Origin: a bacterium
GTDB taxonomy: Bacteria > Bacillota > Limnochordia > DTU080 > RSA5
DNA: 35,416 nucleotides
Direction: 5' to 3'
Assembly: GCA_002919195.1 (NCBI GenBank)
Contig: PKEU01000111.1
Location: 1-35,416 of the forward strand
Shown: piece by piece, positions 10,942 through 32,490 of the stretch
Layout: the number at the start of each line of letters is the position of its first letter
Position numbering within the stretch: position 1 is the stretch's first letter
Program-made: the position numbers and the translations under genes
The notes under the pieces: model-generated
Seen by the model: the letters and a program-made list of their open reading frames with translations, nothing else
Told to the model about the DNA's origin: nothing
Databases searched by the model: none

Positions 10942-12114
10942 ATGACGACCCACGGCGACAAAAAGAGAGCCCTGGTCATCGGGACCATGGACACCAAGCA
11001 GGAAGAGATCCGGTACTTGTGCTCTCGCCTCGAGGAGCTGGGGCTTGGGGCAGAGATCGTCGACTCCACCCCGGCGCAGTGGATGACCCTCGAGGATGGG
11101 CGCTCATCGCGCGACGAGGTGATGCGCCTTGCCGCCGCGCGCATCGCCGAGCACGTGCAGGCTCTTGCGGCCCAGGGCCAGGCGGACGGCGTGGTGGCCA
11201 TCGGCGGCGCCTCGGGAGCGGCCTTGGCCGCCCCTGCGCTCCAGTCGCTGCCGCTCGGCTTTCCCAAGGTGCTGGTGAGCCCGGTGGCCAGCGGCGACAC
11301 CGCGCCCTACGTCGACACGTCCGATGTGGTGCTGATCCCGCCGATCGTCGACTTCGTCGGCCTAAACGCGTACGCGCAAAGGGCGCTGGACAGCGCGGCG
11401 GTCACCCTCGCGGCGCTCATCGAGCGATACCAGCCGTACCCCGACGCGGGCGCGTCGACCCTCGCGGCCACCGCCTTTGGGGTGACATCGCCCCTCGTCT
11501 CGCTCTTGCACGAGCGGCTCAAAGCCGAAGGGCTTCGCCAGGCGGTCTTTGTCTGCAACGGCACCGGCGGCCGGGCCTACGAGCGGTTTGTGGCCGAAGG
11601 CAGGGTGTTTGGCGCCTTCGACGTGACGACCTCGGAGCTCGCCGACGAGCTCTTTGGCGGGGTGTTGTCGGCGGGCCCCGCCCGGCTCACCACGGCGGCG
11701 CGCCTTGGCGTGCCCCAGGTCGTCCTGCCCGGCGCGATGGACTTCATCAATTTCGGGCCCGTGGAGACGGTGCCCGAAGTCTTTCGCGATCGGCCGATCA
11801 TCCGGCATACGCCGCAGGTGACGCTGGTGCGGACGAGTCCCGAGGAAAACGAACGCCTGGCGCAGACGATGGCCCAGCGGCTTCGCGCCGGAGGCGGCTC
11901 CTTGACCATCGTCGTCCCCTTGCGCGGCTTTTCGAAAGTGAGCGAGCCGGGCCGGCCGTTTTACGACCCCAAAGCCGACCGCGCCTTCCTCGACACGCTG
12001 GTGCGCGAGCTGGGAAGCGACCCCATCATCACCGTCGATGCCCCGCTCAACAGCGACGAAGTCGCGGCCGCGGTGCTCAAGGCGAGCGAGCCGTGGCGCC
12101 GCGCCCGGAGGTGA
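10942..12114 (+). CDS. UPF0261 / Tm-1-like ATP-binding domain protein
   Basis: ALVIGTMDTKQEEIRYLCSRLEELGLGAEIVDST, GGASGAALAAPALQSLPLGFPKVLVSPVASGDTAPYVDTSDVVL and VVLPGAMDFINFGP are characteristic of the UPF0261 family. Confidence 0.92.
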   Translation: MTTHGDKKRALVIGTMDTKQEEIRYLCSRLEELGLGAEIVDSTPAQWMTLEDGRSSRDEVMRLAAARIAEHVQALAAQGQADGVVAIGGASGAALAAPALQSLPLGFPKVLVSPVASGDTAPYVDTSDVVLIPPIVDFVGLNAYAQRALDSAAVTLAALIERYQPYPDAGASTLAATAFGVTSPLVSLLHERLKAEGLRQAVFVCNGTGGRAYERFVAEGRVFGAFDVTTSELADELFGGVLSAGPARLTTAARLGVPQVVLPGAMDFINFGPVETVPEVFRDRPIIRHTPQVTLVRTSPEENERLAQTMAQRLRAGGGSLTIVVPLRGFSKVSEPGRPFYDPKADRAFLDTLVRELGSDPIITVDAPLNSDEVAAAVLKASEPWRRARR

Positions 12115-12230: not shown

Positions 12231-13064
12231 ATGGCACGCAAGCAGTGGACCCGAGACGAGTTTTTGGAAAGGCTTCGAGCGTCGATCGCCCAAGGGAGGC
12301 CCATCATCGGAGCCGGCGCCGGGACGGGCCTGGTGGCCAAGGCCGCACAAGCGGGCGGCGCGGACTTCATCGCGGTGTACTGCACTTCCAAGGCCCGCCA
12401 CAAAGGGTTTCCTACCAGCATCATCGGCGATCCTAACGAGATCACCTTGGAGCTCGTGGAAGAGGTGAGCCGGGTGGTCAAAGAGACTCCCATCGTGGCC
12501 GGCCTGCACGCCACCGACCCCACGCGCGAGGTGGAGGAGGTGCTCGACCGCTTTCGCGAGCTGGGCTGCGCCGGGGTGATCAACTACCCCTCCATGGGCC
12601 TCTACGGGCGGGAGTACATCGGCGGCCCGGTCTCGTACCAGCAGGGGCTCGAGATTGAAAAGGCCGCGATGGAGCTGGCCCGGGAGCGGGGGATGGTGGC
12701 GATGACCTACGTCTACCGCCCCGAGGAGGCAGAGTACTTTGCGCCGGCCGTGGACGTCATCGTCGCCCACGCGGGGTGGACCGTCGGCGGCATGGCGGGC
12801 GCGCCGCCGACGATGACGATCGAGGAAGCGGCGGCGGCGATCAACGCGCAGATCGCGGCGGGCCGGGCCACGGGCGCCGACGTGATCTATCTCGGCCACG
12901 GCGGCCCCTTTGCCACGCCGGAAGATACCCGGGCGCTCTATGAGCTCACCCAGGCCAGCGGCTTCGTCGGCGCCTCCAGCATCGAGCGGATCCCCGTGGA
13001 ACGGGCCGTGATGCAGACGGTCGAGCAATTTAAAGCGATTCCTTTGAAAGACGTGAATTCTTGA
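12231..13064 (+). CDS. Phosphoenolpyruvate hydrolase-like TIM-barrel protein (related to the Tm-1 C-terminal domain)
   Basis: GRPIIGAGAGTGLVAKAAQAGGADFIAVY, PIVAGLHATDPTREVEEVLDRFRELGCAGVINYPSMGLYG, HAGWTVGG; adjacent to the UPF0261 gene. Confidence 0.9.
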   Translation: MARKQWTRDEFLERLRASIAQGRPIIGAGAGTGLVAKAAQAGGADFIAVYCTSKARHKGFPTSIIGDPNEITLELVEEVSRVVKETPIVAGLHATDPTREVEEVLDRFRELGCAGVINYPSMGLYGREYIGGPVSYQQGLEIEKAAMELARERGMVAMTYVYRPEEAEYFAPAVDVIVAHAGWTVGGMAGAPPTMTIEEAAAAINAQIAAGRATGADVIYLGHGGPFATPEDTRALYELTQASGFVGASSIERIPVERAVMQTVEQFKAIPLKDVNS

Positions 13065-13083: not shown

Positions 13084-13998
13084 ATGCGAGTAATAGTTAC
13101 AGGCGCGGCAGGTGGCATCGGCCGGCACATCCTCAACTATTTTGGGAAGGATTTCAAGATTGTTGGTTTTGATACGGTCCAGGGGCCCGAAATGGAGCAC
13201 GTGGAGTGGGTGATCGGCGATATCCTCGACGTGGACCGGTTGACCCAGGCAGCCCGGGGGTGCGACGCCATGATTCACCTGGCCGGCATCCCCATCTACA
13301 ACCCCGACCGCGACCTGGACATCGGGCGGGTCAACATCTACGGCATGCAGTGCGCCGTCGAAGCGGCGGCGAGGGCCGGGGTCAAGCGCTTTGCTTACGC
13401 GAGCAGCATCTGCGCCACGTCGTTTATCTTTTGGCAGGAGCGCCGGACCCCCAAGTACTTCCCGGTCGATGAGGAGTACTTCGACATGCCCGACGACATC
13501 TACGGGCTCAGCAAGTTTTTCAACGAGCGGATCGCCTGGGCGTACCAGCGCCGCTACGGCATCGAGACGGTAGGGCTTAGGATGGCCACCGTTTGGCTGC
13601 CGGATCACGAACCCACGGATCAGCTGCTCCGGGATCTCTTGAAACCCGAGCACGACGACAATCTCAAGTTTCGCGACCTGCGCTGGCAATATCTGGACGT
13701 ACGCGACGCGGCACAAGCTTTCTACCTGGCGGTGACCCATCCCAAGGCGGTCGGGATCTTTAACGTGGGCGCGGCCGATTCGCCGGGAGGGGACTGGCGC
13801 CTTTGGGTGCAAGAGCTCTATCCCGACGTGCCGGTCCTGCGGCAGCCTGGGGAGTATCTGGCCGATCTCACCCTGCCGCTTTGGTCGATCCGCAAACTCT
13901 CCCAAGAGGCTGGGTATCAGCCGAAGCACAGCTGGCAAGAGTACCCCGTCTTCGTGGAAGAGCTAGAGAAGTATAAAGAGCGCGTGGGCGCCAAGTAG
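13084..13998 (+). CDS. NAD-dependent epimerase/dehydratase family protein (uronate-dehydrogenase-like SDR)
   Basis: GAAGGIG Rossmann motif, AMIHLAGIP, YASS, and YGLSKFFNERIAW (YxxxK). Confidence 0.88.
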   Translation: MRVIVTGAAGGIGRHILNYFGKDFKIVGFDTVQGPEMEHVEWVIGDILDVDRLTQAARGCDAMIHLAGIPIYNPDRDLDIGRVNIYGMQCAVEAAARAGVKRFAYASSICATSFIFWQERRTPKYFPVDEEYFDMPDDIYGLSKFFNERIAWAYQRRYGIETVGLRMATVWLPDHEPTDQLLRDLLKPEHDDNLKFRDLRWQYLDVRDAAQAFYLAVTHPKAVGIFNVGAADSPGGDWRLWVQELYPDVPVLRQPGEYLADLTLPLWSIRKLSQEAGYQPKHSWQEYPVFVEELEKYKERVGAK

Positions 13999-14127: not shown

Positions 14128-14820
14128 ATGCGGCTCCTTGCCCCGCGGGCCAAGCCGCCCGCTGCGCTGGGTAGCGAGGCGCAAGATTTGGAACTGCTAG
14201 CAGACAAGGCCTACAGGTTAATCAAGACGCAGATTTTGGGGGGCAAATTTCCTCCCAACACGCCACTGCCGGAGGCAGAGCTGCAGCGGAGTCTCGAGAT
14301 GGGACGGACGCCGATTCGCGAGGCTCTCATCCGGTTGCAGCAAGAAGGGCTGGTGCAGATTGTGCCCCGGAGGGGGGCCTTTGTGCAGACCTTGACGCTC
14401 AACGACGCGCGCGACCTTTACCACGTGCGCTCGATCTTGGAGCCCGAGGCGGTCCGCCTTGCGTCGCGCCACATCTCGCCCGGCGAGCTCGAGGCGCTCG
14501 CCAAGGAGTTTCGCGAGCTTTTGGCCGACGAGGACGCCATCGATCTTGAGGAGCTCATCCAACTCGATCAAAAGCTGCACCGGCTCTTTCTCGAAAGGTG
14601 CGGGAATCCCTATCTCGCCGAGGCTTTAGAGAGGCTGCACAACCACAGCCAGCTGGCTTGGGCCCTCTCCGCACAAAACCGGGCGGAGATGCTCCAGGCT
14701 TGCAAAAACCACCTGGCTTTGATCGAGAGCTTGCAACAAGGCGACGTGGAAAAGGCCGCGGGCATGATGCGTGAGCACGTGCTGGCCATGTACCGGGCGA
14801 TCTCGACGCTGACCCGCTAA
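14128..14820 (+). CDS. GntR family transcriptional regulator, FCD subfamily
   Basis: wHTH (LIKTQILGGKFPPNTPLPEAELQRSLEMGRTPIREALIRLQQEGLVQIVPRRGAFV) plus an FCD all-helical domain. Start uncertain (14047-14128). Confidence 0.92.
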   Translation: MRLLAPRAKPPAALGSEAQDLELLADKAYRLIKTQILGGKFPPNTPLPEAELQRSLEMGRTPIREALIRLQQEGLVQIVPRRGAFVQTLTLNDARDLYHVRSILEPEAVRLASRHISPGELEALAKEFRELLADEDAIDLEELIQLDQKLHRLFLERCGNPYLAEALERLHNHSQLAWALSAQNRAEMLQACKNHLALIESLQQGDVEKAAGMMREHVLAMYRAISTLTR

Positions 14821-14920
14821 AACGCGGTTTTTCGCCGCTTCGTTTCAGGCTCGTGGCGCCCCGGCGCCGGCGTGAAGGGAAGGACGGTACCGGTGAGCCG
14901 GCACGTGTTGCCGCAGTGAT

Positions 14921-14953
14921 ATATTTTGTGTATATTTCGCGTACATAAACGCG
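14921..14953. promoter_or_regulatory. 11-bp-phased ATAT repeat array upstream of the ABC importer
   Basis: ATATTTTGTGT / ATATTTCGCGT / ACATAAACGCG in register at 11-bp steps between the GntR gene and the SBP gene. Confidence 0.5.
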
Positions 14954-15084: not shown

Positions 15085-16080
15085 ATGCTCAAAAGACGCG
15101 GGATTCACACCATCGTGCTGATCGCAGCGCTCATCGCTCTCTTGGGCGGCGCTGTGTCGGCCCAAAACGTCTACACGATCGCGACCGTCTTTAAGCTGTA
15201 TGGAGACGACTGGTTCCTCGCGATGGAAGAGGGCGTCAAGCAGTTTGAGCGCGATACCGGCCACAGGACCATCATGACCGGCCCGCCGCTTGTCGACGCG
15301 GCCTTGCAGGTGCAGGTGATCGAGGACCTCATCGCGCAACGGGTCGACGCGATCACGGTCGCTCCCATCTCGGTGGAGTCGCTGGAGCCGGTGCTCAAGA
15401 AAGCCATGGACGCTGGCATCGTCGTCATTGTGGTGGAGGGCTCCAATCAGGCCAACAGCCACTACAACCTCGAGGCCTTTGATCCCGCCGAGTACGGCGC
15501 GTTCATGATGGACCGGCTGGCGGCCCTGATGGGCGAAGAGGGCGAGTACGTCACCTTTGTCGGCTCGCTCACCACCAGGTTGCAGATGGAGGTCGTCGAC
15601 GGGGCCATCGCTCGCCAGGAGGCGGCTTATCCCCGGATGAAGCAGGTGCGCGACCGGGTCACCTCCGACAGCAGCCAAGCCCAGGCCTACCGCTTGACCA
15701 AAGAGCTCCTCGTCACCTATCCCAACCTGGTGGGCGTTTTGAACACCGCGGCGCCCGAAGCGGCGGGCATCGGTTTGGCCATCGAGGAGATGGGCTTGGA
15801 AGACGAGACCTTTGTCGTCGGGACCAGCCTGCCGTCGGTGGCGGGGCAGTACCTTGAGACCGGCGCCGTCGACATCATCACCTTCTGGGATCCCCGGGCC
15901 CAGGCCTACGCCATGAACAAGCTGGCCCTCATGGTGCTGGAAGGCGAGCCCATCTACGACGGCATGGACCTCGGCATCCCCTATCCGGGCTACGACAATT
16001 TGCGCCTCGTGGGCAAGGTTCTCTACGGGCGAGGCTGGATCGAGGCCACGGCCGAAAACATGCACGAGTACCCGTTCTAA
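15085..16080 (+). CDS. Sugar ABC transporter substrate-binding protein (Peripla_BP_4/ribose-type)
   Basis: Signal peptide, then NVYTIATVFKLYGDDWFLAMEEGVKQF..., LIAQRVDAITVAPISVESLEPVLKKAMDAGI; SD GGAGGGAG before ATG 15085; followed by ribose-type ABC genes. Confidence 0.93.
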   Translation: MLKRRGIHTIVLIAALIALLGGAVSAQNVYTIATVFKLYGDDWFLAMEEGVKQFERDTGHRTIMTGPPLVDAALQVQVIEDLIAQRVDAITVAPISVESLEPVLKKAMDAGIVVIVVEGSNQANSHYNLEAFDPAEYGAFMMDRLAALMGEEGEYVTFVGSLTTRLQMEVVDGAIARQEAAYPRMKQVRDRVTSDSSQAQAYRLTKELLVTYPNLVGVLNTAAPEAAGIGLAIEEMGLEDETFVVGTSLPSVAGQYLETGAVDIITFWDPRAQAYAMNKLALMVLEGEPIYDGMDLGIPYPGYDNLRLVGKVLYGRGWIEATAENMHEYPF

Positions 16081-16101
16081 TTTGGACAGCAGGCCCCGAT
16101 C

Positions 16102-16135
16102 GGGACGGGCGTCTCCGTGCCGGGATGCCCGTCCC
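16102..16135 (+). other. Stable intercistronic hairpin downstream of the SBP gene
   Basis: GGGACGGGC (16102-16110) / GCCCGTCCC (16127-16135), 9-bp perfect stem. Confidence 0.7.
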
Positions 16136-16180
16136 TTGCTCTTAGAGCATCGAGCGGCCGCGCGCTTGGGCGGGGTGGGT

Positions 16181-17674
16181 ATGCCAGAGACCATCATAGC
16201 ATTGAAGGAAGTCCACAAGTGGTTTGCGGGCGTCCACGCCCTACGGGGGGTGAGCCTGAGGCTCGAGCGGGGTGAAGTGCACTCTCTGGTGGGGGAAAAC
16301 GGCTCGGGCAAATCGACGCTCATCAAGATCATCGCAGGTGTGCACGCGCCCGACCGGGGCGAAGTGTTGATCAACGGCAAGGTCTACCCGCGCCTTACAC
16401 CCCTCGATGCCATCCGCGAGGGCGTGCAAGTCATCTACCAGGATTTTTCCCTCTTTCCCAACCTGAGCGTCGCGGAAAACATCGTCCTCACCCGGGCGCT
16501 CGCTGCTGGGCAGCGCTGGATCGACCGGCGCCAGATGCGGGAGCAAGCCCGGGCGGCGATGGCGAGGATCGGGGTCGAGCTGGACCTCGAGGCGCCTGTG
16601 GAGGAGCTGCCGGTCGCGCAAAAGCAGCTGGTGGCGATCTGCCGGGCGCTGGTCGACAACGCCCGGCTCATCATCATGGACGAGGCGACGACGGCCCTCA
16701 CGGAACGGGAGATCCGCGCCCTCTTTGAGGTGGTCAAGGCCCTCAAAGCCCAGGGGATTGCCACGCTCTTTGTGAGCCATAAACTCAACGAAGTGCTGGA
16801 AATCGCGGACAACGTCACCATCGTCCGTAACGGGACGGTCGTGGCCGCAGGGCCGGTCGCCCAGTACAGCCGGTCCGCGCTCATCCGGCATATGACGGGC
16901 CGCGACGTGGACGAAATGACTTACCAGGGCCCGCAAAAGCCCAGCGGGGACCCGGTGCTGGAGGTTCGAGGCCTCGGCAAGGCGGGGAGGTTTTTCGACG
17001 TCTCCTTCCGGCTCCACGCGGGGGAAGTGCTGGGACTTGCGGGGGTGCTGGGCGCTGGGCGCACCGATCTGGCCTTGGCCCTCTTTGGCCTGCGGCCCGC
17101 CGACCAGGGAGAGATCCGCATCGACGGGCGGCCGGTGAAAATCCGGAGCGTGCGCGACGCCATCGCCCACCGCATCGCCTATGTGCCGGAGGACCGCCTG
17201 ACCGAGGGGCTGTTTATGTCGCAGTCCATCGGCCGCAACATCTTGGTGAGCAGCCTCGACCGGCTGGCGGGGCGCGCGAGCGTCGTCGACCGGGCCCAAG
17301 CCCAAGCCATAGTGGCCCGCTGGATCCGGGAGTTCCGGATCGTCACCCCTTCGGCGGAGCAGCCGGTGGAGACCCTCTCGGGCGGCAACCAGCAGCGGGT
17401 GGTCCTTTCCCGGTGGCTCGCGACATCCCCCCGGATCCTGATCCTCAACGGCCCGACGGTGGGGGTCGACGTCGGCTCCAAGAGCGAGATCCACGAGACG
17501 ATCCAAGAGCTGGCGCGCGGGGGAATGGCCGTCCTCTTGATCTCCGACGACCTGAGGGAAGTGTTGCAAAACTGCAACCGCATCCTGGTGATGAAAGACG
17601 GGCGGCTGGTCGCCGAGCATCAGGCGGGCGCCGTCACCGAAGCGGAGCTGGCCCGGCAGCTCTCGGGAGGATAG
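16181..17674 (+). CDS. Sugar ABC transporter ATP-binding protein (two ABC domains, RbsA/XylG type)
   Basis: Walker A GENGSGKST; LPVAQKQLVAICRAL; second-half LSGGNQQRVVLSRWLATSPRILILNGPTVGVDVGSK. Confidence 0.95.
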   Translation: MPETIIALKEVHKWFAGVHALRGVSLRLERGEVHSLVGENGSGKSTLIKIIAGVHAPDRGEVLINGKVYPRLTPLDAIREGVQVIYQDFSLFPNLSVAENIVLTRALAAGQRWIDRRQMREQARAAMARIGVELDLEAPVEELPVAQKQLVAICRALVDNARLIIMDEATTALTEREIRALFEVVKALKAQGIATLFVSHKLNEVLEIADNVTIVRNGTVVAAGPVAQYSRSALIRHMTGRDVDEMTYQGPQKPSGDPVLEVRGLGKAGRFFDVSFRLHAGEVLGLAGVLGAGRTDLALALFGLRPADQGEIRIDGRPVKIRSVRDAIAHRIAYVPEDRLTEGLFMSQSIGRNILVSSLDRLAGRASVVDRAQAQAIVARWIREFRIVTPSAEQPVETLSGGNQQRVVLSRWLATSPRILILNGPTVGVDVGSKSEIHETIQELARGGMAVLLISDDLREVLQNCNRILVMKDGRLVAEHQAGAVTEAELARQLSGG

Positions 17675-17683
17675 ATCGACCAT

Positions 17684-18688
17684 ATGGTAAAGCGGCTGGC
17701 AGCAAAGCAAGAGGTGGTCGTGTTTTTCACCATCGTGGGGCTGGGGCTTGTCATCGGGCTGGTGAACCCTGCCTTTTTCACGGCAGGCCACCTTTTCAAC
17801 CTGATCAACAGCAGCGTGGTCATGGGCATCTTTGCCCTGGGCGTCCTCGTGGTGCTGCTTTCCGGCGGAATCGACGTCTCCTTTACGGCCATCGCCGTCT
17901 TTGCCTTTTACTCGACGGTGAAGTTTTTAGGGACCCACAACTTCCAGGGCAGCCTCCTCGTCCCCTTTGGAATGGCCACCTTGATCGGCCTTGGGCTCGG
18001 CCTTGTCAACGGGTTTTTCGTTTCCAGGCTGAAGCTGATGACGCTGATCGCCACCTTGGGGACGGCCAGCGTCTTTCGGGGCTTTCTCTTAACCTTCATC
18101 GGCTCGACGATCTATACCAAGCTGCCCTCGTCGATGGTGGCCTTTTCCCGGGCGTACCTGGTCGAAGTGGTGCAAGGGCGGGCCCGGTACGGGCTGCACG
18201 CAGGGATTTTGGTCCTCGCCGCGTGCGCCCTGCTCACGTGGTTCCTGCTCAACCGGACGATGCTGGGGCGGGGGATCCACGCCCTGGGCGGAGACCGGGT
18301 CGCGGCCGAGCGGGCCGGGTTTCGCATCGAGAGGCTGCAGTACTTCATCTACGCCTTTAGCGGGGCCATCGCCGGGATCGCCGGCATCGTCCACAGCTCG
18401 ATGGCCCGCATTGCCATGCCTTCGGACCTTTTAGGCCATGAGCTCAACGTCATCGCCGCCGTGGTCTTGGGCGGGGCCCGCATCACCGGCGGGAAAGGCA
18501 CGGTGACCGGCGCCTTGCTCGGAACGTTTCTCGTGACGATGATCACCCAGAGCCTCATCTTGCTCGGCATCCCCTCCTACTGGCAGCAGGCGGTCTTGGG
18601 GGCTTTGATCTTGGTCGGGACCGCGCTGCCCGCCTTACAGGCCAAGCGGAAAGAGGCGGTAGGCGGGGCGCTCGGCGGCGTGTCGTGA
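17684..18688 (+). CDS. ABC transporter permease (RbsC/BPD_transp_2 family)
   Basis: Multiple TM segments; LLSGGIDVSFTAIAVFA and GGARITGGKGTVTGALLG motifs. Confidence 0.93.
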   Translation: MVKRLAAKQEVVVFFTIVGLGLVIGLVNPAFFTAGHLFNLINSSVVMGIFALGVLVVLLSGGIDVSFTAIAVFAFYSTVKFLGTHNFQGSLLVPFGMATLIGLGLGLVNGFFVSRLKLMTLIATLGTASVFRGFLLTFIGSTIYTKLPSSMVAFSRAYLVEVVQGRARYGLHAGILVLAACALLTWFLLNRTMLGRGIHALGGDRVAAERAGFRIERLQYFIYAFSGAIAGIAGIVHSSMARIAMPSDLLGHELNVIAAVVLGGARITGGKGTVTGALLGTFLVTMITQSLILLGIPSYWQQAVLGALILVGTALPALQAKRKEAVGGALGGVS

Positions 18689-18728
18689 ACGGGCTGGGAC
18701 TCAAGGATGGGTTGAGGGAGAGATCAGG

Positions 18729-19796
18729 ATGAGCCACCAATTCCCCAGCATGTCGCATCGCCCGGCAAGCCTTAGGGAAACGCCCTTGAGCATCAGGCTC
18801 GGGGCCGCGGATCCCAACACGATGTGGCTCTTGGTCGCGGCGGTCGGGGTGTTTCTCCTCATGGGGGCACTGCGGCCGGACGTGTTTTGGACGGCCGCCA
18901 ACCTGGGTTCGATGGCGCGCCAGTTTCCCCAGGTGGGGCTCTTGGCGCTGGGCATCTTGCTCGCGATGCTGAGCGGCGGGATCGACCTTTCGATGGTAGG
19001 CATCGCGAACCTCAGCGCGATCCTGGCCGCGTTGGTGATGAAGCGCCTGGCCGGTCCCGGTGCAAGCCCGGGCGAAGTGATGTTGTATACGGCCCTGGGC
19101 GTCGCCGTCGCCTTGCTGGTGGGAGCGCTGTGCGGGATGGTGAACGGCTTGGTGATCGCCAAGGTCGGTGTGAGCCCGATCCTTGCGACGCTGGGGACTA
19201 TGCAGCTGTTTACGGGGATTGGCGTGATCATCACGGGCGCCCGGCCCGTCTTTGGCATGCCGGAGCTCTTTACCAATGGCCTGGCCAGCTCGGTGCTGGG
19301 CGTGCCGGTTCCAGCCCTGGTGTTTGCGGCCTTCGCGGCGCTGATGGCCTTCTTCCTGAGCCGCACCGCCCTGGGAACAAAGCTTTACCTCATGGGCGCC
19401 AATCCGGTGGCCGCCCGCTTCGCGGGGCTCAACACGACGGCGCTCCAGCTTTGGACCTACACGCTGGTCGGCGTCTTGGCGTCGTGCGCCGGGCTCCTAG
19501 TCCTCGCGCAGACCAACTCGGCGAAAGCCGATTACGGCACGTCGTACACGCTCCAGTCGATCTTGATCGCCGTCATGGGCGGGGTCAACCCCTACGGGGG
19601 CTCCGGCAAAGTGGCCGGGGTCGTCTTGGCCCTGTTGGTGCTCCAGTTTCTGTCCAGCGGGTTTAACATCCTCGGCTTCAGCAGCTTCCTCAAGGACTTG
19701 ATCTGGGGCGTTTCGCTGCTGGTGGTCATGGCGCTCAACTACTTGAGCGCCCAGCGCAAGCTCAAACAGAAGGGAAAAGAGCAGGGAGTCTCGTGA
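18729..19796 (+). CDS. ABC transporter permease (RbsC/BPD_transp_2 family), second copy
   Basis: MLSGGIDLSMVGIANLSAIL and AVMGGVNPYGGSGKVAGVVLALLVLQFL; same family as the upstream gene. Confidence 0.93.
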   Translation: MSHQFPSMSHRPASLRETPLSIRLGAADPNTMWLLVAAVGVFLLMGALRPDVFWTAANLGSMARQFPQVGLLALGILLAMLSGGIDLSMVGIANLSAILAALVMKRLAGPGASPGEVMLYTALGVAVALLVGALCGMVNGLVIAKVGVSPILATLGTMQLFTGIGVIITGARPVFGMPELFTNGLASSVLGVPVPALVFAAFAALMAFFLSRTALGTKLYLMGANPVAARFAGLNTTALQLWTYTLVGVLASCAGLLVLAQTNSAKADYGTSYTLQSILIAVMGGVNPYGGSGKVAGVVLALLVLQFLSSGFNILGFSSFLKDLIWGVSLLVVMALNYLSAQRKLKQKGKEQGVS

Positions 19797-21133
19797 GAAG
19801 CATCGCGGAAAAGGCAAGACCGTTTTGGAGCGGGTACGATATCGCGATCTTTCCGCTGGCCGTGGTATCGCTGGGGCATCTCGTGGTCGACATGTACCTC
19901 GGGGGCTTTCCCGTGCTCTTTCCTCGCCTGCAGGAACGATACGGCCTCACCTACGGCGAGATCGGGCTCTTGATGCTGCTCGCGCAGTTGAGCTCCTCGG
20001 TGGTGCAGCCCTTGCTGGGCCTTTGGAGCGACAGGCTGAAAGCCCGTTGGATCTTGCCGGCGGGACTCGCGCTTTCCGCCTTAGGGCTTGCGGTGGTCGT
20101 CCTGGCGCCGAATTTCCTGATGGCCCTCGCCGGCACGACGGTCATGGGACTGGGTGTCGCCGCGTACCACCCCGAGGCGTCCAAGTTGGCCATGTTTGCC
20201 GGGGGGAAGCGCAAGGCCGCCGCGATGTCGGCCTTCGCGTTGAGCGGGAACGTGGGGCTCTCTCTCGGGCCGGGGCTGATGGCTTTGGGCCTCGCCTGGC
20301 TTTCGGGTGGGGGCGGAGGAGAGACTTTGGGCGCCCTCGTGTTTTTGCCCTTCGCCCTCGGGATGGCTCTTGCCGTCCAGTCGGGCAAGGAGCGGCTGTA
20401 CGCCGTGCTGCCGCCGCCTAAGGCCCAAGGCCAGGCGGCCGGAGACCTGGCGAAGGCAAGGGAGGCGAAACAAAGCGAAAAGGAGCGCTCCCGGCCGCGG
20501 CGAGCGGCGCTTGTGGGCGCATCCTTGAGCGTGCGAAGATGGCCTGCCCACTACCGCTGGATGCTCTTGCTCTTGATCTACATCTTTATCCGCTCCTCGG
20601 CCCACGCCGGGCTCCAGGCCTTGATCCCCCTCTACTACCAGGATGGGACCGGCGCTGCGGGCGTCTACAGCAGCTGGGCGCTTACCGCCTTTCTCGCCGG
20701 AGGAGCCGCCGGCACCTTGTTTGGCGGGATTTTGGGCGACGCGGTGGGAGCCCGCCCCGTCGTCGTCGCGTCGTTTTTGCTCTCAGCCCCGCTCATCGGG
20801 GCGCTGCCGCACCTCGGCAGCGGCCCGGCGGCATTGCTCGCGCTGTTTGCGGCGGGCGTCACGTTGATCGCCTCGTTTTCGCTTACGACCGTCATGGGCC
20901 AGAAATTGCTGCCGGAGCGCGTGGGGCTGGCCTCCGGCCTGACGCTCGGCTTTTCGGTAGGCACGGGCGGGATCGGCGCCGCGCTCTTGGGTGTGATCGC
21001 CGACGCTTGGGGCCTAGGGAGCGTCTGGATGGTGGTGGCGGCGCTGCTCCTTGCCGGCTCGTCCTTGGCCTGGGCGCTGCCCAAGGACGAAGCGGTCGAG
21101 GCGCACTTCGCAGGCGATCAGGAGACGTCGTAA
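19793..21133 (+). CDS. MFS transporter (fosmidomycin-resistance/Fsr-like)
   Basis: 12-TM-like hydrophobicity, [56 protein letters not shown]; charged central loop; 4-bp overlap with the preceding permease gene. Confidence 0.9.
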
Positions 21134-21159
21134 AAGGCTTTCCGCCTTTACCTTCTTGG

Positions 21160-21216
21160 ATATTCTGTCGATATATCGTACAGATATCAAAGCAATATCT
21201 CGCAGATATCATCGCA
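21160..21216. promoter_or_regulatory. 11-bp-phased ATAT(C) repeat array upstream of the chemoreceptor gene
   Basis: ATATTCTGTCG-AT-ATATCGTACAG-ATATCAAAGCA-ATATCTCGCAG-ATATCATCGCA; last four units in perfect 11-bp register. Confidence 0.6.
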
Positions 21217-21242
21217 GCATCGTAAGAGCGAGGGATGGGCAC

Positions 21243-23210
21243 GTGCGGCTCACGGTCGGATCAAAGCTGGCAATCAGCTTCGCGGTCGTCGTCATCATGA
21301 TGGGCATCAACGTCTGGGTGGGGCTCCAGGGCCTTGGGCAGGTGGTGGGCACCTACCAGGGAGAAGTGGCCCGGATCATCGAGGCCCGCGCCCAGACCCA
21401 GGAGATCGAAAGGCTCGCGTCCGAGCAGGTCCAGGCCATCATGGGCTATCTCATCACGCTGGATGAGGTTCACCGCCGGAGTTTTGTCAACGCGAGCCTG
21501 GCGATCAACCAGATCATCAACGGGCTCAAAGAGACGGCGCCCAGCGACGAGGCTATCGAGCTCTTGGACCGGGTCTCCCAGACCAAGACGGAGTTTGAAC
21601 GCCTCGCCAGCCCCTTGATGGAGCGGATCTTGAGCCAGCAGCAGCTCCGTTCGATCCTCACGGGCGAGCTGGGCACCCGGCGGGACGCCCTGCTGGCTGC
21701 GACGCGGGCGCTCAATGAGTATCAAAACGCCCGGGTGCTTGCGGTCCAAGAGGAGGCCGCCGCCCAGAGCGCCCGGGCGCAGACCACGATGCTGGTCATC
21801 GCCGCGATCGGTGTGGCCGTGGCGGCGGCTGGCGGCGTGTTGATCACCCGCGGGCTCTCCCTGCCGGTGCGCGAAGCGGCACAGGCCGCGCTGCGCCTTG
21901 CCCGGGGCGACCTTTCCATGAAAGAGATCGCCGTTCGCAGCCGGGATGAGATCGGCGAAATGGCTGGCTCCTTTAACCAGATGGTGGCCAACCTGCGGAG
22001 CATGATCGCGGAGATCCAGCAGACGAGCAGGACTTTGACGGCCAACAGCCGTTCGCTCCTTTCGTCCGCCGACCAATCCTCCCGCGCGACGGAGCAGATC
22101 ACCGGCGCGGTGCAGCACGTGGCCGCCGGCACCAACAACCAGGTGAGCCTGGTGCAAGAGACCCACGAAGCCATGGCCCAGCTGCGCCAGACCATCGACC
22201 AGATCGCCGAGAGCTCGCAAGATCAGGCGCGGCGGGCCGAGCATTCGACCGCGGCCCTGGATGAAGTAGTCGACGCCATCCGAAAGGTGACCGAGGCGAC
22301 GGAGCAGGTGGCGCAGGCCGCCTACCTCGGATCGGAGAAAGCGAAGCAAGGCGGAGAGGCGGTGGCCTCGATGGCCCAAGGGATGGCGGAGATCCACGCT
22401 TCGGTGGCCGAGGTGGGCGCCCGCATCGACCAGCTGGGCGAGTACTCGCAAAAGATCGGGCAGATCGTGGAGATGATCAGCGACATCGCCGAGCAGACCA
22501 ACCTGCTGGCGCTCAACGCCGCGATCGAAGCGGCCCGGGCCGGGGAGCACGGGCGAGGCTTTGGCGTCGTCGCCGACGAGGTGCGCAAGCTCGCCGAACG
22601 CTCGGCCGAGTCGACCCGCGAGATCGGCGCCCTGATCGGCAGCATCCAGGTGGCGGTGGACGCCGCGGTCCAAGCGATGCGGGCGGGCACGGCCCAGGTC
22701 GAAGCCGGCACCCAGCTGGCCGCCAACGTGCGCGAGACCATCGACGAGGTGATCCGGTCCATCCAGGAGACCGACGCGTTGAGCCAAGAGATCGCCCAGG
22801 CCGCCAGGCGGATCTCCGAGGAGAGCAGCCGGGTGCAGTCCGAGATCAACCAGCTGGTGGTGACGATCGAGGAAAACACGGCGGCGGTGGAGGAGATGGC
22901 TGCCGCCAGCGAGCAGGTGGTAAAGGCCATGGGCGACGTCGCCGCCATTTCCGAAGAGACCGCCGCCTCGGCTGAAGAGATGGCAGCCTCCACCGAAGAG
23001 GTGAGCGCCGCCGCTGCTGAGATGCGAAGGTTTGTCCAGCAGTTGACGGACCTGGCGCAAGACCTGGACAGCCTCGTGGCCCGGTTTAAGCTCGAGCAGG
23101 ACGACGAGGGTGGAGAAGGCGGCGGCGCGAGCGGGGATGGCCAAAAACCCACCGGGGACGAGCCCCTACAAGGGGCGGGCCCGGAAGAAGCGGCCGGCGT
23201 GCCGCACTGA
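21243..23210 (+). CDS. Methyl-accepting chemotaxis protein
   Basis: TM1, extracytoplasmic domain, TM2, HAMP, and the signalling hairpin [50 protein letters not shown] start at 21243. Confidence 0.96.
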
Positions 23211-23333: not shown

Positions 23334-25310
23334 TCAACGCACCGCGATGCCAAAGCCCAGGGGAGGGACGCGGACCGTCGTATCGTCGATCCACTCGACG
23401 GCGACGGGAGCGCCCTCCTCGTCGTATAAGGAGAGCTGGACCTCGCCGGGGCCGGCGAAAGGCAGCGCCCAGTGCTGGGTTTCTTCGGTCATGTTGCGAA
23501 ATGCCACTACCTCGCGCTGGACTTGGCGGGCTTTGCGCCACATCACCGCCGGGTGGACGACGATCCCGTCCAGCGCAAGCGGGCCCCCGTCCACGACGAG
23601 GCGGATCGCGGGGCGGGGATCACCAAGCTCCACGAGGCCGAGGCGGGAAAGGCGGAGCCGGTCCCCCTGGGCATCCCGCCCAATTTCCAGTGTCGCGATG
23701 AGCTTTTCACCTGCCAGGACATAGACGGTAGCAGCCTGGATGCGGGCCCCGCCGTGGACAAGGTCGAGCCGGTAGGTTCCGGCGGGCAGCGGGGCAGGAA
23801 GCGGCAGGCTGGCTTCGGCGCCGGGGTGCATCACGATGTAACCGTCGCCGCTCGGGCGCGAACCAGCAAGGGCCCGTTCCCGGCGGGTTTCGATGCGGCC
23901 AAACCCCGGCTTGAGGTAGCTTTCCGCCTCAAGGACAAGAGGACCGTGCGCCGCGGGTTGGGCCAGCCGGGGGTCTTGCAGGAGGCCGTTGGGTTTCAAG
24001 CGGGCCAAAGCGAGGAGCATCGAGAGGCCTTCGATGGTCGATTCGGCCCCGGCGTTGTAGTTGACGCGCCCCCGGGCGCCCCAAGCGTCCCCGTCGACGC
24101 CGTCAAAGGTGCGGCCGCTGGGGCCGTGGTGGAGCGGCTCGAGCGCGGGGTTGTTGCCAAAGAGCCAGGAGGCCGCCAGCAGCGCGAGGTCGCTGTAAAG
24201 GGGACGGCCCGTCGCGTGATGCAGGTAGACGAGACCCCGCACCAGGGGCGACTGGTCGTACGCGATCTGGGGATAGGGAATGGGCGCAGGCCCCTGGGCC
24301 GCCAGCGCGCCTGGTCCCGCGACGATGTAAGTACCCAAGGCGTGGGCGGTTTCGGCCGCCCAGCTCACCCACTCGGGCCGGTCAAAGACGATGCCCGCGA
24401 GGCCCAGAGCTTCCATGCCGTGGCTGCCCCACCCGGTCCAGACGGCGGAGCTGCCGGGAGAGGGCATGACGGCCCGGTAGGGCGGGGTTGCGGCGTCTCC
24501 CTGCTGGGCTTTTCGCAAGCCCAGGGCGAGCGCCGTGGCGAGCGCTTCGAGCTCCGGGTCCGGCTGGGCGCTGTGGAGCAGCGAGATGGCCAGGAGAAAG
24601 ATGGCGCTCACGTCGGCCCCGCCGCCGGCGATGACGGGCGCGGGCTGTGGGTTCGCGGGGGCGGGCTCGACGAGGGCCTGAGCGGGCGTTGCCGCAGGCT
24701 CAGAGCCCGAGACAGCGAACCGGAGCCGCCCGCCAGGTTGCGCTCGCTTCACCACGTCCTTCAGCTTTTCCACAGAGGGTTTGAGCAGGGTCGCAATCTC
24801 CCGAGCTTCCTCGGGATCGACGGTCTTAAACACCTGCACGGCCTTGGCCAGGCCCCACATGGCCCGGGCCATCCACCAGTTGACGCCGGGTCGGCTCGTG
24901 ACGCCGGTTAGGTTGAGGCGCCCGTCGGCCATGACGAAATTGGCGTAGGTCCCATCTTCCTGCCGGGTGTAGGCGAGAAAGGCGATGGCGTCCCGGGCGT
25001 GGTCGAGCGAGGCGGCATCGCCGGTGAGCTCATAATGCTCGAGGTAGACCAGGAGGGCGCGGGCTACGTCGTCGACGCACGCCACGCCTTCGCCGGCCGC
25101 CGGGACAGGCCGGTATCCCGCCGCCGTGGGCTCCGCATACACGTACCAGATGGGAAGGGGCCCTTGAGGCGTCTCGATCCATGCTTTCAGCGCGTTGAGA
25201 TGCTCCAATGAAATCGCCTCGACCGGATACCCCGTGGCCGTCAAGGCGGGAGAGGAAAGTAATAGGATCAACAAACAGGTGAGAGCCAGGGATGAAACGG
25301 TGCGGCGCAC
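23334..25310 (-). CDS. Secreted (alpha/alpha)-barrel-like carbohydrate-active protein, putative
   Basis: Signal peptide (LALTCLLILLLSSPALTA); all-alpha N-terminal repeats (GVACVDDVARALLVYLEHYELTGD, NWWMARAMWGLAKAV) and a C-terminal beta-rich region; in a sugar locus. GTG 25310 preceded by GGGAGGGG. Enzymatic family not assigned. Confidence 0.6.
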   Translation of the reverse strand: MRRTVSSLALTCLLILLLSSPALTATGYPVEAISLEHLNALKAWIETPQGPLPIWYVYAEPTAAGYRPVPAAGEGVACVDDVARALLVYLEHYELTGDAASLDHARDAIAFLAYTRQEDGTYANFVMADGRLNLTGVTSRPGVNWWMARAMWGLAKAVQVFKTVDPEEAREIATLLKPSVEKLKDVVKRAQPGGRLRFAVSGSEPAATPAQALVEPAPANPQPAPVIAGGGADVSAIFLLAISLLHSAQPDPELEALATALALGLRKAQQGDAATPPYRAVMPSPGSSAVWTGWGSHGMEALGLAGIVFDRPEWVSWAAETAHALGTYIVAGPGALAAQGPAPIPYPQIAYDQSPLVRGLVYLHHATGRPLYSDLALLAASWLFGNNPALEPLHHGPSGRTFDGVDGDAWGARGRVNYNAGAESTIEGLSMLLALARLKPNGLLQDPRLAQPAAHGPLVLEAESYLKPGFGRIETRRERALAGSRPSGDGYIVMHPGAEASLPLPAPLPAGTYRLDLVHGGARIQAATVYVLAGEKLIATLEIGRDAQGDRLRLSRLGLVELGDPRPAIRLVVDGGPLALDGIVVHPAVMWRKARQVQREVVAFRNMTEETQHWALPFAGPGEVQLSLYDEEGAPVAVEWIDDTTVRVPPLGFGIAVR

Positions 25311-25760
25311 GCACGACCCCTCCCGGAGAATTTGCTGCCAGCAACGGCCGGTCATGGATGACCTTCTCCGCTTTGCTTTCGTTTTCCCGCTTCAGGCCGG
25401 CCAGTGGGATCCTTGGATCGCTGTCGCCGACAGGACTCTCGCCGCTGTCAGGGGAATGCTCGCGATAGACCCGACGCCGCCCGTGCTTTGGCGGCTAGAC
25501 CCTCCGGCATGTCAGGAAGGCTTTGGGGGGCATTTCTCCCGCCCCTCTTTGGTTGGGTGACCCTCGGCGTGGCGATGGGACTCCTGCCGGTGGTAGTGCT
25601 CCTCTACGCAATTGTGATGTTGGCCTGCACTGAAACGGTCAATCGCCTTCTGCGGGACGTTGCCCCGGGTTCCGCAACGTAAACGGCTAAAGAGTGACCG
25701 GGCGGAAGGACTGGGCGAGGGTCGGGATCCGGATTTCCGGTGGACGCCGCCCATATGTAA

Positions 25761-25819
25761 GGCCCCGACGCATGTCGGGGCCCGGTGGTGTAAGGAGAGG
25801 GGGCAAGCCGCCCCCTCTC
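25761..25819. other. Tandem perfect GC-rich hairpins
   Basis: GGCCCCGAC-gcat-GTCGGGGCC (25761-25782) and GAGAGGGGGC-aagcc-GCCCCCTCTC (25795-25819), each directly preceded on + by TGTAAG(G). Confidence 0.8.
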
Positions 25820-25961
25820 ACGCGATTGCTTTCTGCCAATTTGCCTGCGACGTCTTCCCGCCGTGCCCTGGCACCTCGAACCTTGGGCGACGGCGTCGAC
25901 GCAAGGTCACCTGCGCGCGATGTTGGCTTTCGGCCAAGGCGCCCGCAGCGGTCCAGCCTCC

Positions 25962-27353
25962 TTACTGCCGGGTGACGCTGACCCCGGAAATCTCCTCGTA
26001 GCGGTTTTCGAGGTAGCGGATGGCGTCGGCCGCATCGGCCGCCTCATAGGGGGCGTACACGTTGACAAACTGCACCGTGTCGCCCGGGATGAGGTGAAGC
26101 GCCCAGTCGTCGGCTTCCATGTCGGTGCCAAATCCGACCTCGATGCCCTTGGCCTCCCGGCTCGTGACCACTTCCTCGGGGATCCAGCGGAAGTAGCCGT
26201 TGCGCCACTCGCCCTCGAGCTGCCACTGGGGACCTTCGAGGCGCTCCCTGAGGCCGGTCGCGATTTCGGGCACGTTGAGGAGCATCTCGGCCGTGCCGAG
26301 GCCCAGCTCAGCCGAGTGGTTGGTGCGCCAGCGCTCGGGCGAGGCGAAGATGTACGACGCGCCCCACCACAGCGGCGCCGGGCCGCCGATGTCGTTGAAG
26401 GCCACGTAGCTCTTGCCGTCGACTTCCATCAGGACGTCCCGCTCCGCCCAGTACTGGGCCGGCGTCACGTCCAGCTCGTCGGCCCACTCCAGCCAGCGGA
26501 AGACGGGCAGGATATGCCGCGCGTCGGAGGTGCCGGCCATCACGGCGTTGACGATGGTCTCAAGCTTGGTGAGGTCGGCATAACCGGCGCTCGTGATCAC
26601 CTGGTCGACCAGGATCTCGCCGGTCGGGTAGACGCTGATGATCGCGTCCTGCCGGAGCCCCGGGAAAAGGTCGGAGGCCCGCTGCACGATGACGGTCGCG
26701 CGCACCGGCGAGTTTTCGAGGATCGTCACGCTCCGCACCCGCATGGGCTCCTCAAGGGTCGTCTTTTCCTCGTGGGCCTTGAGCTCGCCGTTGACCCAGT
26801 AGGTGCTGTACGGGAAGCCCGCGTAGCGCAAGAAGCCGATGTCCCGGGCAAAGGAACGCTCGACGCCGGCGTAGCGCACCAGGTTGACGCCGCCCAGGGG
26901 CGTCACTTCCACGGCCACGTCGCCGTCTTTGGACTCGATGAGCCAGCCTTCCTCGGTCTCGGTGACGGTGAAGGCGTTTTCAAAGGCGGGCGGCGCCTCC
27001 GTGGCCGCCATGGCCACCTCGATCCGGGCCGAGCCCTCAACGACAAAGGCCAGGCGATCGTGGAGCGAAAGGGCGCCCGAGAGATCGGCGTCGTCGATCT
27101 GGTAGGGGATCAGGTTGCCGTCGCTATCGTAGACCCGCAGGGAATCCCAGTCGATGGGAAAGGCAAGGCCCACAGCCCGGCGCACCTCGTCGAGGCTCAA
27201 GGCTACCGGCACGGGTTTGCCGGTGAGCGCCGGCGCTTCGACGAGGAGGCTCCGGGTCTGGGCGGAGGCTGCGCCCAGGCTCAAGACGAGCGCAGCCAGG
27301 ACCAAAGCCACGGTTAAGCCGAAAGATGAGCGAAGCTTTTTCACCGCGTTCAT
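25962..27353 (-). CDS. Uncharacterised secreted protein of a carbohydrate-use locus
   Basis: Signal peptide (LVLAALVLSLGAASA-QT); beta-rich (FPIDWDSLRVYDSDGNLIPYQIDDADLSG...); start overlaps the stop of the SBP gene by 4 bp. Confidence 0.8.
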   Translation of the reverse strand: MNAVKKLRSSFGLTVALVLAALVLSLGAASAQTRSLLVEAPALTGKPVPVALSLDEVRRAVGLAFPIDWDSLRVYDSDGNLIPYQIDDADLSGALSLHDRLAFVVEGSARIEVAMAATEAPPAFENAFTVTETEEGWLIESKDGDVAVEVTPLGGVNLVRYAGVERSFARDIGFLRYAGFPYSTYWVNGELKAHEEKTTLEEPMRVRSVTILENSPVRATVIVQRASDLFPGLRQDAIISVYPTGEILVDQVITSAGYADLTKLETIVNAVMAGTSDARHILPVFRWLEWADELDVTPAQYWAERDVLMEVDGKSYVAFNDIGGPAPLWWGASYIFASPERWRTNHSAELGLGTAEMLLNVPEIATGLRERLEGPQWQLEGEWRNGYFRWIPEEVVTSREAKGIEVGFGTDMEADDWALHLIPGDTVQFVNVYAPYEAADAADAIRYLENRYEEISGVSVTRQ

Positions 27354-28654
27354 CGGTTGTCGACCTCCTCACTGATGATGGCGCTGATCTCCCGCTGCAG
27401 GCTCTCCATGGCCGACGCGGCAGGCATGGCGTTGAAGTAGATCGTCTGGTTGAGGGCGTTGACGAGCACGCTCGTCACCCGCGCCTGGTTGGCAAAGAAG
27501 GGCGCGGGACGGGCGTAGGCCGTCTGCTCGATAAAGACGTTCATGTTGATGCCTTCGCGGGCGCCCCGGGTGAGCGTGGCGTAGTCAGCGCCAAGGCTCA
27601 AGCGAGCGGGCTGCAGGTTGGCTTGATGCATCAAGATCTCCTGCGCCTCAAGGCCGGTGATAAAGAGGAGAAACCGCACAGCCTCTTCGGGGTGCTCGGT
27701 GCCCGCATAGACCATGATGCCGTCGTTGGTATGAACAGCGGCCGGAATCCCGCTCCTGCCCCGCGGGCGGACGCTTGCGTTCCACCGGAAACCCGCTTGC
27801 TGCAGCGTGTTGCTCACATCCCACGAGCCGGTCTGCCACATGGCGACCGTGTCGCCCCTCCAAAAGCCGGTCCACGGGTCCATGCCCAGGTTGGGCCATG
27901 CGGGCGCGACCTCGTAGGTGTGGATCAGGTCCTGCAGAAACTGGACGGCTTCCACGACTTCCGGCGTGTCGAAGTAGACCCGCTCGCCCACAAAGGTGCC
28001 CGGTTCGATCACTTCGCCGCCGTTTTCCCAGATCCAGAGGATGACCCGGTCCCAGGCGACCTGGACGTCGGTGCCGTAGGTGGTGACGACGCCCGCGCCG
28101 TCGCGGCGGGTCAGTTTCCTCGCAGCTTCGAGGAGGTCGTCCCAGGTCCAGGTCTCATCGGGGTAGAGGAGGCCTGCCTGGTCAAACATGTCCTCGTTGT
28201 AAAAGAGCGCCGAGATTCCCGTGTAGTAGGGAAGGGCGTACTGCTTGCCGTCGATGTTGAAGAGCTGCACGTGGCTCGGGACAAAATCATCGAGGTACCC
28301 TTCGGGCAGGTAGTCGTTGAGGGCCAGGGCTTGTCCCTGATCCAGCCAGGCCCGGAACCAGTGGTCAAAGCCGGCGATGACGTCGGGCGCGGTGCCCGCC
28401 AGCATCTGGACGCTGGCCCGCTCCTGCCAGGCCGCGGTGGCCGGCTCGTAGACCACCCGGATGTCGGGGTTCATTTCATTAAAGATGTCGACCAACAGCT
28501 TGTTGATGTCGTCGCCAAAGGGCGTGATGCGGGGGTTGGTCATATAACGGATTTCTACGGGCGCTGCCAAAGCCGCCGCCGGCAGGAGCAGCGCCACGAC
28601 AACAACGAGCGCAAACCAAGCGTGAAGCCTCGCTCGCATGACAAATCCCTCCAT
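27350..28654 (-). CDS. Extracellular solute-binding protein (family 1, carbohydrate)
   Basis: Signal peptide, then IRYMTNPRITPFGDDINKLLVDIFNEMNPDIRVVYEPAT..WQERASVQMLAGTAPDVIAGFD; typical SBP_bac_1 layout. Confidence 0.92.
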   Translation of the reverse strand: MEGFVMRARLHAWFALVVVVALLLPAAALAAPVEIRYMTNPRITPFGDDINKLLVDIFNEMNPDIRVVYEPATAAWQERASVQMLAGTAPDVIAGFDHWFRAWLDQGQALALNDYLPEGYLDDFVPSHVQLFNIDGKQYALPYYTGISALFYNEDMFDQAGLLYPDETWTWDDLLEAARKLTRRDGAGVVTTYGTDVQVAWDRVILWIWENGGEVIEPGTFVGERVYFDTPEVVEAVQFLQDLIHTYEVAPAWPNLGMDPWTGFWRGDTVAMWQTGSWDVSNTLQQAGFRWNASVRPRGRSGIPAAVHTNDGIMVYAGTEHPEEAVRFLLFITGLEAQEILMHQANLQPARLSLGADYATLTRGAREGINMNVFIEQTAYARPAPFFANQARVTSVLVNALNQTIYFNAMPAASAMESLQREISAIISEEVDNR

Positions 28655-28720
28655 TTTTTTGTGAACTACCGGATGACGCCGGACTTATGCATTTAGCTGA
28701 TGAGCCGCGTCCTCACTCCT

Positions 28721-29764
28721 TCATCGGATTGCGCCCCGCAAGGTTCCCGGCGGGGCCGTCGTCTGGCGCACCATGAGCTCAGGGTAGACCACCACTTTCA
28801 GCGGGACGCGCTGTCCCGTCTGGATGGCGTCATAGAGCAGCCGCGCCGCTTGGGTCCCCATCTCGCGGCAGTGGACTTTCACGGTCGTGAGGTGGGGGTG
28901 GGAGCTTTGCACGACGTCGTCAAAGCCGGCGACCGAAAGATCGCCGGGCACCGAAAGGCCCAGCTCCCTCGCGGCGTGGATGACCCCCAGCGCCACGGTG
29001 TCGTTGGAGCAGAGGATCGCCGTCGCCTTGAGGCCCCGGGCGCTCCAAAGCTCCCGAAATCCCGACACGCCGGTTTCAAAGCCGAAATCGCTCTGGGACT
29101 CTGCGACGATCCAAGGCTCGATCTCACTGTCGCAGGCCGCGGGGGCCGCGCCGTCGTTCGCCTCGGCCATGGCGAGCTTAAATCCTTCGACCCGCTGCCG
29201 AAGCGAAAGGTGGCTGAGGGGGCCCGCGATATAACCGATCTGAGTGTGGCCCAGGGAAAGGAGGTGCTGGGTCAAAGCCCGGCTGCCCTCGGCGTTGGCC
29301 GTGACGACTGCGGGCGTGGGCTCTTCGGGGAACTCGTTGTCGACGAGGACCACCGGGATGCCCGCTTCTTTGAGCGGCCGCACGTCCTCGGGCTTGACGT
29401 CGGCGCCGACGACGATGTAGCCGTCCGGGGCGCCGTGAGTCAACACGTCCCCCAGGTCGCCCGGGCGCTCAAAGGTGGAGAAAAACACCCGATAACCCCA
29501 CGAGCGGAACGAAAGCTCGACCCCCTCCATCACGGCGCCGTAAAAGCCGTCGCCGATGAGATACCGGAGCCGCCGGCTGTACAGGATCCCGACGGCCCGC
29601 GGGGAAGGAGCGTCGCTCGCCACTTCGTAACCCATCTCTTGCGCAATCTGGACAATGCGATTGCGCGTTTTTTTCGCAATGCGACCCTTGCCGCTGAGGG
29701 CCCGGGAAACCGTTGATGGAGCCACTTTCGCCCTCTTGGCAATGTCGACGATGGTGACGCTCAT
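28721..29764 (-). CDS. LacI family transcriptional regulator
   Basis: MSVTIVDIAKRAKVAPSTVSRALSGKGRIAKKTRNRIVQIAQEMGY, then a periplasmic-binding-like effector domain. Confidence 0.96.
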   Translation of the reverse strand: MSVTIVDIAKRAKVAPSTVSRALSGKGRIAKKTRNRIVQIAQEMGYEVASDAPSPRAVGILYSRRLRYLIGDGFYGAVMEGVELSFRSWGYRVFFSTFERPGDLGDVLTHGAPDGYIVVGADVKPEDVRPLKEAGIPVVLVDNEFPEEPTPAVVTANAEGSRALTQHLLSLGHTQIGYIAGPLSHLSLRQRVEGFKLAMAEANDGAAPAACDSEIEPWIVAESQSDFGFETGVSGFRELWSARGLKATAILCSNDTVALGVIHAARELGLSVPGDLSVAGFDDVVQSSHPHLTTVKVHCREMGTQAARLLYDAIQTGQRVPLKVVVYPELMVRQTTAPPGTLRGAIR

Positions 29765-29796
29765 CCCGAAATTTAACCTGCTTTCTCACCTTGGGA

Positions 29797-29825
29797 GTGC
29801 GCAATATTTCCTTCAATGTGCGCAA
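29797..29825. promoter_or_regulatory. Putative LacI autoregulatory operator pair
   Basis: GTGCGCAA at 29797-29804 and 29818-29825, 21 bp apart, just upstream of the lacI-family start; each is one base from the palindrome TTGCGCAA common for this family. Confidence 0.45.
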
Positions 29826-29895
29826 ACGCTAATCCTGCCTGAAGTTGCCTTTCTTGTTGTTTGTCGCCTTGTGCAGTCGCATTGAAAATTGAAAG

Positions 29896-30138
29896 CTAGC
29901 CAATCGTGTCGTGGGATTTTGCGGACGGCCAATTGAGGGGGATCTGGGTCATCGCCTGGTGGCGCTGGACGATTTCGCAAGGGAAGTTAACGCAGCGGCC
30001 GCATTCGTTGAGCGATGCGTCGAGCTCCACCGACCGGGCGATCACGCGGGGATGGCGAAAGGACGAGAAAAACTCGACCGCTTGGATGAGCTCTTCGCGC
30101 AGGCTAGAGATGCGGTTCCAGGTGTGACATTCAATCAT
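29896..30138 (-). CDS. Spo0E-like aspartyl-phosphate phosphatase, small protein
   Basis: ISSLREELIQAVEFFSSFRHPRVIARSVELDASLNEC resembles the Spo0E family pattern (LRxEL...P.V...SxELDxxIN). Confidence 0.65.
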   Translation of the reverse strand: MIECHTWNRISSLREELIQAVEFFSSFRHPRVIARSVELDASLNECGRCVNFPCEIVQRHQAMTQIPLNWPSAKSHDTIG

Positions 30139-30619
30139 AACGGGCTCCCCATTGTGATACTAACCATTTGGAATTTCTACCCAGGAAGTCAAAGACCTTT
30201 CGAAAAGTCAGCGGCGCAGTCAATTTGTGGCAAATGTCCTTTCGGTTTTGGGACTTTGCGGCAACATCCACCCATCCATGCGCCTGGGCTAGCGGCCCGC
30301 GATCCACTGGTAAAGCCACATGACTCCTAGCACGAGGAGCCAGACGATCGTACCGGGTCATATCGGCAGGCTCCCACGGGGCCTTCGTTCCCGGTCGTCG
30401 CACTGGGGGCCGGTTCAACGGAAGGAAGCCGGCGGACGACGCTCCTGGGCCACGGGCTGCCACCTCCTTAAGGTGCATTATATCATGATTAATAGATACG
30501 TAACACTATAAACAATGAATATAGGAGGGTAAGCATACAGGCATATCACGGCGCAAGGCGCGGCTTGCGTGAGGGACGCCTGGACGGAAACCCGCTCCAA
30601 AGCGTTGGTCGCGAGGCGC

Positions 30620-32367: not shown

Positions 32368-32490
32368 ATTGGATCGTCCTTTTTCCCGTACGCTCTTTGG
32401 ACCATCGAGGGGGCGGGGAAGGAGCCCGCTCCGGTGTCGTCGACCAAGATCGCCGCCTCACCGGCGCGCTGGCCTGCCCCGTCCCCGAAA

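Follow-up and report, generated by a model that had tools for sequence, protein, structure and literature searches.

Operators composed of direct repeats are an already known kind among GntR-type regulators. For example, the GntR-type regulator NanR occupies a (GGTATA)3 operator of E. coli, which is bound by three cooperating dimers (PMC8012715). Similarly, extra boxes at 7-12 nt from the site centre have been described in the FadR, HutC and YtrA subfamilies (Suvorova et al. 2015, PMC4494728). Chemoreceptor genes, in turn, can be grouped with a catabolic pathway, as mcp-Nag is with the N-acetylglucosamine pathway in Shewanella (PMC2996990).

The locus studied here, in a window of 35,416 nt (the whole stretch of DNA that was analysed), contains three arrays of phased TA-rich units that would be a variant form of such direct-repeat operators, fitting an extended form of NanR-like repeats or extra half-sites. 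As in the NanR system, we find a GntR-FCD-type regulator, direct TATA-containing repeats in threes, and a catabolic/transport locus. The NanR repeats, however, consist of GGTATA and are tighter (spacing ~8-9 bp), whereas the period here is 11 bp, with up to five units, in three arrays, one of them in front of a chemoreceptor gene; direct repeats are present in the window arrays, while the GGTATA unit and its spacing are unmatched. Cooperative binding of dimers is known for NanR and is proposed for the window arrays. The 11-bp iteron has the look expected of the extra boxes of the GntR family when these are strong, although in those sites a weaker box accompanies one strong palindrome, whereas each array here is a regular series of similar units, three to five in number. 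Finally, Shewanella mcp-Nag likewise is a chemoreceptor gene beside a sugar uptake and degradation pathway, but pathway, regulator and operator are different ones, and the receptor gene in the window has an iterated array of its own.

The genes follow each other as a catabolic operon that ends with the regulator (OYE, UPF0261, PEP_hydrolase-like, epimerase, GntR), an ABC/MFS uptake operon and the chemoreceptor gene (methyl-accepting chemotaxis protein, MCP), with operon limits inferred from gene spacing and strand and gene families assigned with Pfam:

8938-8965, + strand: array A, three 11-bp-phased units (GTATATCTCACATATATTATACATATAT) located 37 bp upstream of the OYE-type gene
9003-10937, + strand: OYE-type oxidoreductase, catabolic operon
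10942-12114, + strand: UPF0261 protein, catabolic operon
12231-13064, + strand: PEP_hydrolase-like protein, catabolic operon
13084-13998, + strand: epimerase family protein, catabolic operon
14128-14820, + strand: GntR-family regulator with FCD domain (GntR 3.1e-18, FCD 6.4e-27), the proposed array binder
14919-14946, + strand: array B, three 11-bp-phased units (ATATATTTTGTGTATATTTCGCGTACAT) located 138 bp upstream of the binding-protein gene
15085-21133, + strand: uptake operon with Peripla_BP_4, ABC ATPase, two BPD_transp_2 permeases and MFS transporter
21133-21149, + strand: short stem-loop AAAGGC-TTTCC-GCCTTT, read from the sequence, between the MFS stop codon and array C
21159-21216, + strand: array C; phased ATAT units near 21159/21170-21172, 21183, 21194 and 21205, upstream of the MCP gene
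21243-23210, + strand: MCP, with a weak 4HB sensor match, HAMP and MCPsignal

Array C had been described in a first-pass annotation, which overlooked the sister arrays A and B. The three arrays each precede one of the three transcription units of the cluster, one motif thus standing before the operon of the regulator itself and before the neighbouring units (8938, 14919 and 21160), and the GntR-FCD gene sits inside the cluster that is proposed to be regulated. Because the phased pattern precedes all three units, the sensing, import and degradation of one compound are probably governed jointly by a single local switch of the GntR type. We consider it likely that the three arrays are operators of this local regulator, bound cooperatively, and that catabolism, uptake and the chemoreceptor are under joint control. 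The nearest solved relatives of the regulator are 3sxy and 3fms. Directly upstream of the catabolic cluster lie flagellar genes (FlgN, FlgK, flagellin, FliW, DUF6470) and a gene for a GAF-HD protein (2668-8675).

A re-reading of array C confirmed the earlier description throughout: ATAT starts at 21160, 21171, 21173, 21184, 21195 and 21206, the last four units are in exact 11-bp register, a 22-bp tandem (21173-21194 and 21195-21216) is identical at 17 of 22 positions (77%), and 26 bp separate the end of the array from the GTG start at 21243. The first ATAT lies 11 bp upstream of 21171 but 13 bp upstream of 21173, the two being part of one ATATAT. The array spans 84 to 27 bp upstream of the MCP start codon, which has a GAGGG 8 nt in front of it, and the 25 bp between the MFS stop codon and the array are mostly occupied by the short stem-loop. 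The latter is perhaps a weak terminator, for which a terminator scan made no call, and the MCP gene may be read through from the upstream operon. Near array C no sigma-70 promoter was called on the + strand and one weak site on the - strand; a reading of the repeats as an RNA element was dropped after an Rfam search of the window gave zero matches. As array C nearly fills the gap between the MFS and MCP genes, any promoter belonging to MCP itself would overlap it. The first-pass annotation had suggested a sigma-28 flagellar promoter at this place, with GTCGATAT as its -10 box. This sequence agrees with GCCGATAA at 6/8 positions and the downstream gene does encode a chemoreceptor, but TAAA-N14/15/16-GCCGATAA attains a best total of 8/12, and 332 placements in the window score at least as high; we regard such a promoter as highly improbable.

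The 11-bp pattern is far more frequent in the window than chance predicts and is rare elsewhere in the genome. The 35-kb window contains eight copies of ATAT-N7-ATAT where 0.02 would be expected, a number reached in 0 of 100 shuffles, and among ATAT-to-ATAT distances of up to 60 bp the distance 11 is seen eight times and the distances 10 and 12 zero times (9 and 13 arise where ATATAT counts twice). Within the AT-rich gap 21134-21242, 4 such pairs compare with 0.02 expected (0/5000 dinucleotide shuffles), and the best lag-11 self-identity is 14/22 (P 0.004 in dinucleotide shuffles). At the scale of the genome (3.13 Mb in 219 contigs), where our statements rest on pattern searches, arrays A and B account for all 4 exact matches to TATAT-N6-TATAT; with at most one mismatch there are 19, 10 of which fall in arrays A, B and C. 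Three ATATs with short gaps are found at six places, two of them inside the window. The forward pattern ATATY-N6-ATAT has nine matches (seven within the arrays), although the plain ATAT-N7-ATAT count is the fairer test because the Y was picked after the arrays had been seen. Three of the non-array one-mismatch matches to TATAT-N6-TATAT flank another gene of GntR type, on contig C103, in agreement with the idea of an 11-bp spacing that accompanies GntR regulators. This other GntR-type gene (HTH MARRQPLYQQIYEQLLEDIRTGKYPPGSQLPTEKEL...; L199-L201, near 4219 and 5563) has TATATGTCATTTATACC upstream and TTTATACCATATATATTC on the opposite side, with the same 11-bp spacing of TATA.

A similar periodicity is found in front of distant relatives of the regulator. 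We examined the DNA upstream of 84 genes homologous to the GntR gene of the window, from its own genome and from related genomes of the class. Pairs of GTAT are spaced by 11 bp in 13 cases there, while any other spacing up to 30 bp occurs at most twice. Since several homologues stem from closely related genomes, we also counted by protein lineage (50% identity), which left 4 lineages with the signal; shuffled sequences gave 0.21 on average and never more than 3 in 500 shuffles. The homologues that display the repeat are 27-37% identical to the window GntR, and their 11-bp-phased GTATAC repeats lie just upstream of their own GntR-FCD genes, for example GTATACTTATTGTATAC (L051), GTATACAAAGAGTATAC (L056), GTATACAAGTGGTATGCTAGTGGCATAC (L073) and ATATACCACTGATATACCAGTTGTATAT (L052). 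The lag-11 signal is carried by GTAT, TATA and TATAC; for ATAT alone, lag 11 is unremarkable upstream of the homologues. A palindromic GT-Nx-AC core is expected of GntR-FCD (FadR subfamily) operators. The homologues have GTATAC, and the units in the window read TATAT or GATATC, both being AT-palindromic and mostly without GT...AC. We considered whether an Arg-to-Ala substitution in the GntR of the window had caused the loss of G from the units and rejected this, as some homologues with GTATAC sites are without the Arg too.

We built a unit matrix from eight homologue upstream sequences, none of them from the window, and scored three units at lag 11. Across the 35-kb window the top three positions are 8938 (26.4), 14919 (24.7) and 21160 (18.5), i.e. 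the three arrays, while the other lags tried (8-14) yield 20.2 at best. With a two-unit score the arrays rank high at lags 7, 9, 13, 15 and 16 as well, so that AT-richness contributes to the ranking; the preference for lag 11 is visible in the scores and not in the ranks. The GntR protein encoded at 14128-14820, which the first-pass annotation had named as a candidate for binding tests, is the best candidate for the array binder. The cooperative operator suggested by that annotation gains support from the recurrence at three promoters of one gene cluster, from the rarity in the genome and from a homologue matrix that finds all three arrays.

The same comparisons bear on what array C is. Its core is GATATC, and the GTATAC/TATAT form of arrays A, B and the homologues is absent from it; because this core makes it the most divergent of the three, its assignment is the weakest. 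Arrays A and B could be GntR operators and array C the site of another factor, such as an OmpR/PhoB-type response regulator (a class that binds direct repeats spaced by 11 bp), tied to motility and not to the catabolic cluster. The GATATC core, the five units in direct repeat and the lowest matrix score of the three (18.5 vs 26.4 and 24.7) would agree with such a division. However, the unit at 21172, TATATCGTACA, is closely like TATATCTCACA of array A, array C is among the few one-mismatch matches to TATAT-N6-TATAT genome-wide, and zero response regulators were detected among the window genes scanned. We regard a separate factor for array C as rather unlikely.

Alternatively, the phased TA-rich repeats could serve as a promoter element through bending or loosening of the DNA, with no specific protein involved. 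The units are rich in TpA, their spacing is near one helical turn, and a promoter would necessarily overlap array C. Yet A-tracts are absent, and the genome has many other promoters but almost no such phased sites, which are concentrated in a single gene cluster. Random AT-rich sites lack the phasing, while promoters of GntR homologues have it; curvature as the sole function, also raised by the first-pass annotation, is accordingly less likely, and we judge a purely structural element to be quite improbable.

The operator model starts from three phased arrays, near-exclusive genome-wide, before three transcription units, and from the GTATAC iterons of the homologues. In this model the operator unit would be approximately [T/G/A]ATAT[C/T]-N5, repeated every 11 bp. 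Units one helical turn apart would present nearly the same face of the DNA, and several GntR dimers could be seated side by side and in contact. We infer repression rather than activation, with array C grouped with A and B: since a promoter of MCP itself must overlap array C, protein bound there should block RNA polymerase and repress the gene. The substrate or a metabolite of it, as a shared ligand, would bind the FCD domain and release the repressor, which would bring on all three units at once: the catabolic operon with the regulator gene in it, the uptake operon (ABC/MFS) and the chemoreceptor. The model thereby turns a lone repeat into a testable local regulon of one regulator and three iterated operators, and it predicts that the chemoreceptor is linked to one specific pathway of import and degradation. 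If this is true, NanR would not be the only GntR-FCD regulator with cooperative binding to direct repeats, and the compound carried by the neighbouring ABC transporter would be a candidate ligand of the receptor; the binding protein resembles the sugar type, its best partial models being rhamnose RhaS and autoinducer-2 LsrB, well below their cut-offs. More tentatively, and with the odds somewhat against it, the arrays may mark a GntR-FCD subgroup that uses three to five single-face 11-bp iterons, on which dimers stack along the DNA instead of sitting on a single palindrome, with the chemoreceptor tied by such an array to the switch that also governs uptake and catabolism.

Among 60 relatives no orthologue of the MCP was found, the best match being ~34% identical over the sensor part, and the array was absent from the upstream stretches inspected of MCP paralogues and homologues. 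Searches of contigs for the MCP sensor part and for the GntR protein gave no useful relative. For the binding protein, neither of its two closest orthologues (L122, L123) has ATAT-N7-ATAT in its surroundings, which speaks against the operator model. The nearest syntenic cluster found (OYE/PEP-hydrolase/UPF0261/epimerase) is that of genome G223 (L121), from another class of the phylum, on a contig in which a homologue of the window GntR is absent. A single ATAT-N7-ATAT ~160 bp upstream of the UPF0261 gene of G223 was discounted as evidence, the contig having 44% GC. Across the 72 other genomes of the class that were searched, the PEP_hydrolase-like gene (12231-13064) had zero matches at E <= 1e-40; its closest match, 51% identical, lies in a similar cluster from another class. 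Together with the position of the nearest syntenic cluster found, outside the class, this suggests horizontal transfer.

Downstream of the MCP gene, positions 23334-27353 contain long ORFs on both strands without a Pfam match above cut-off. They are followed by a second carbohydrate-type ABC locus with a LacI and an AraC-type regulator (27350-35117), which includes:

27350-28654 and 32610-34091: SBP_bac_1 genes
30620-31468 and 31465-32367: permeases

The best match of the homologue matrix outside the arrays, TATAAACAATGAATATA, lies within this locus, in the AT-rich intergenic stretch 30478-30543 between a LacI-family gene (28721-29764, - strand) and an ABC permease gene (30620-31468, - strand).
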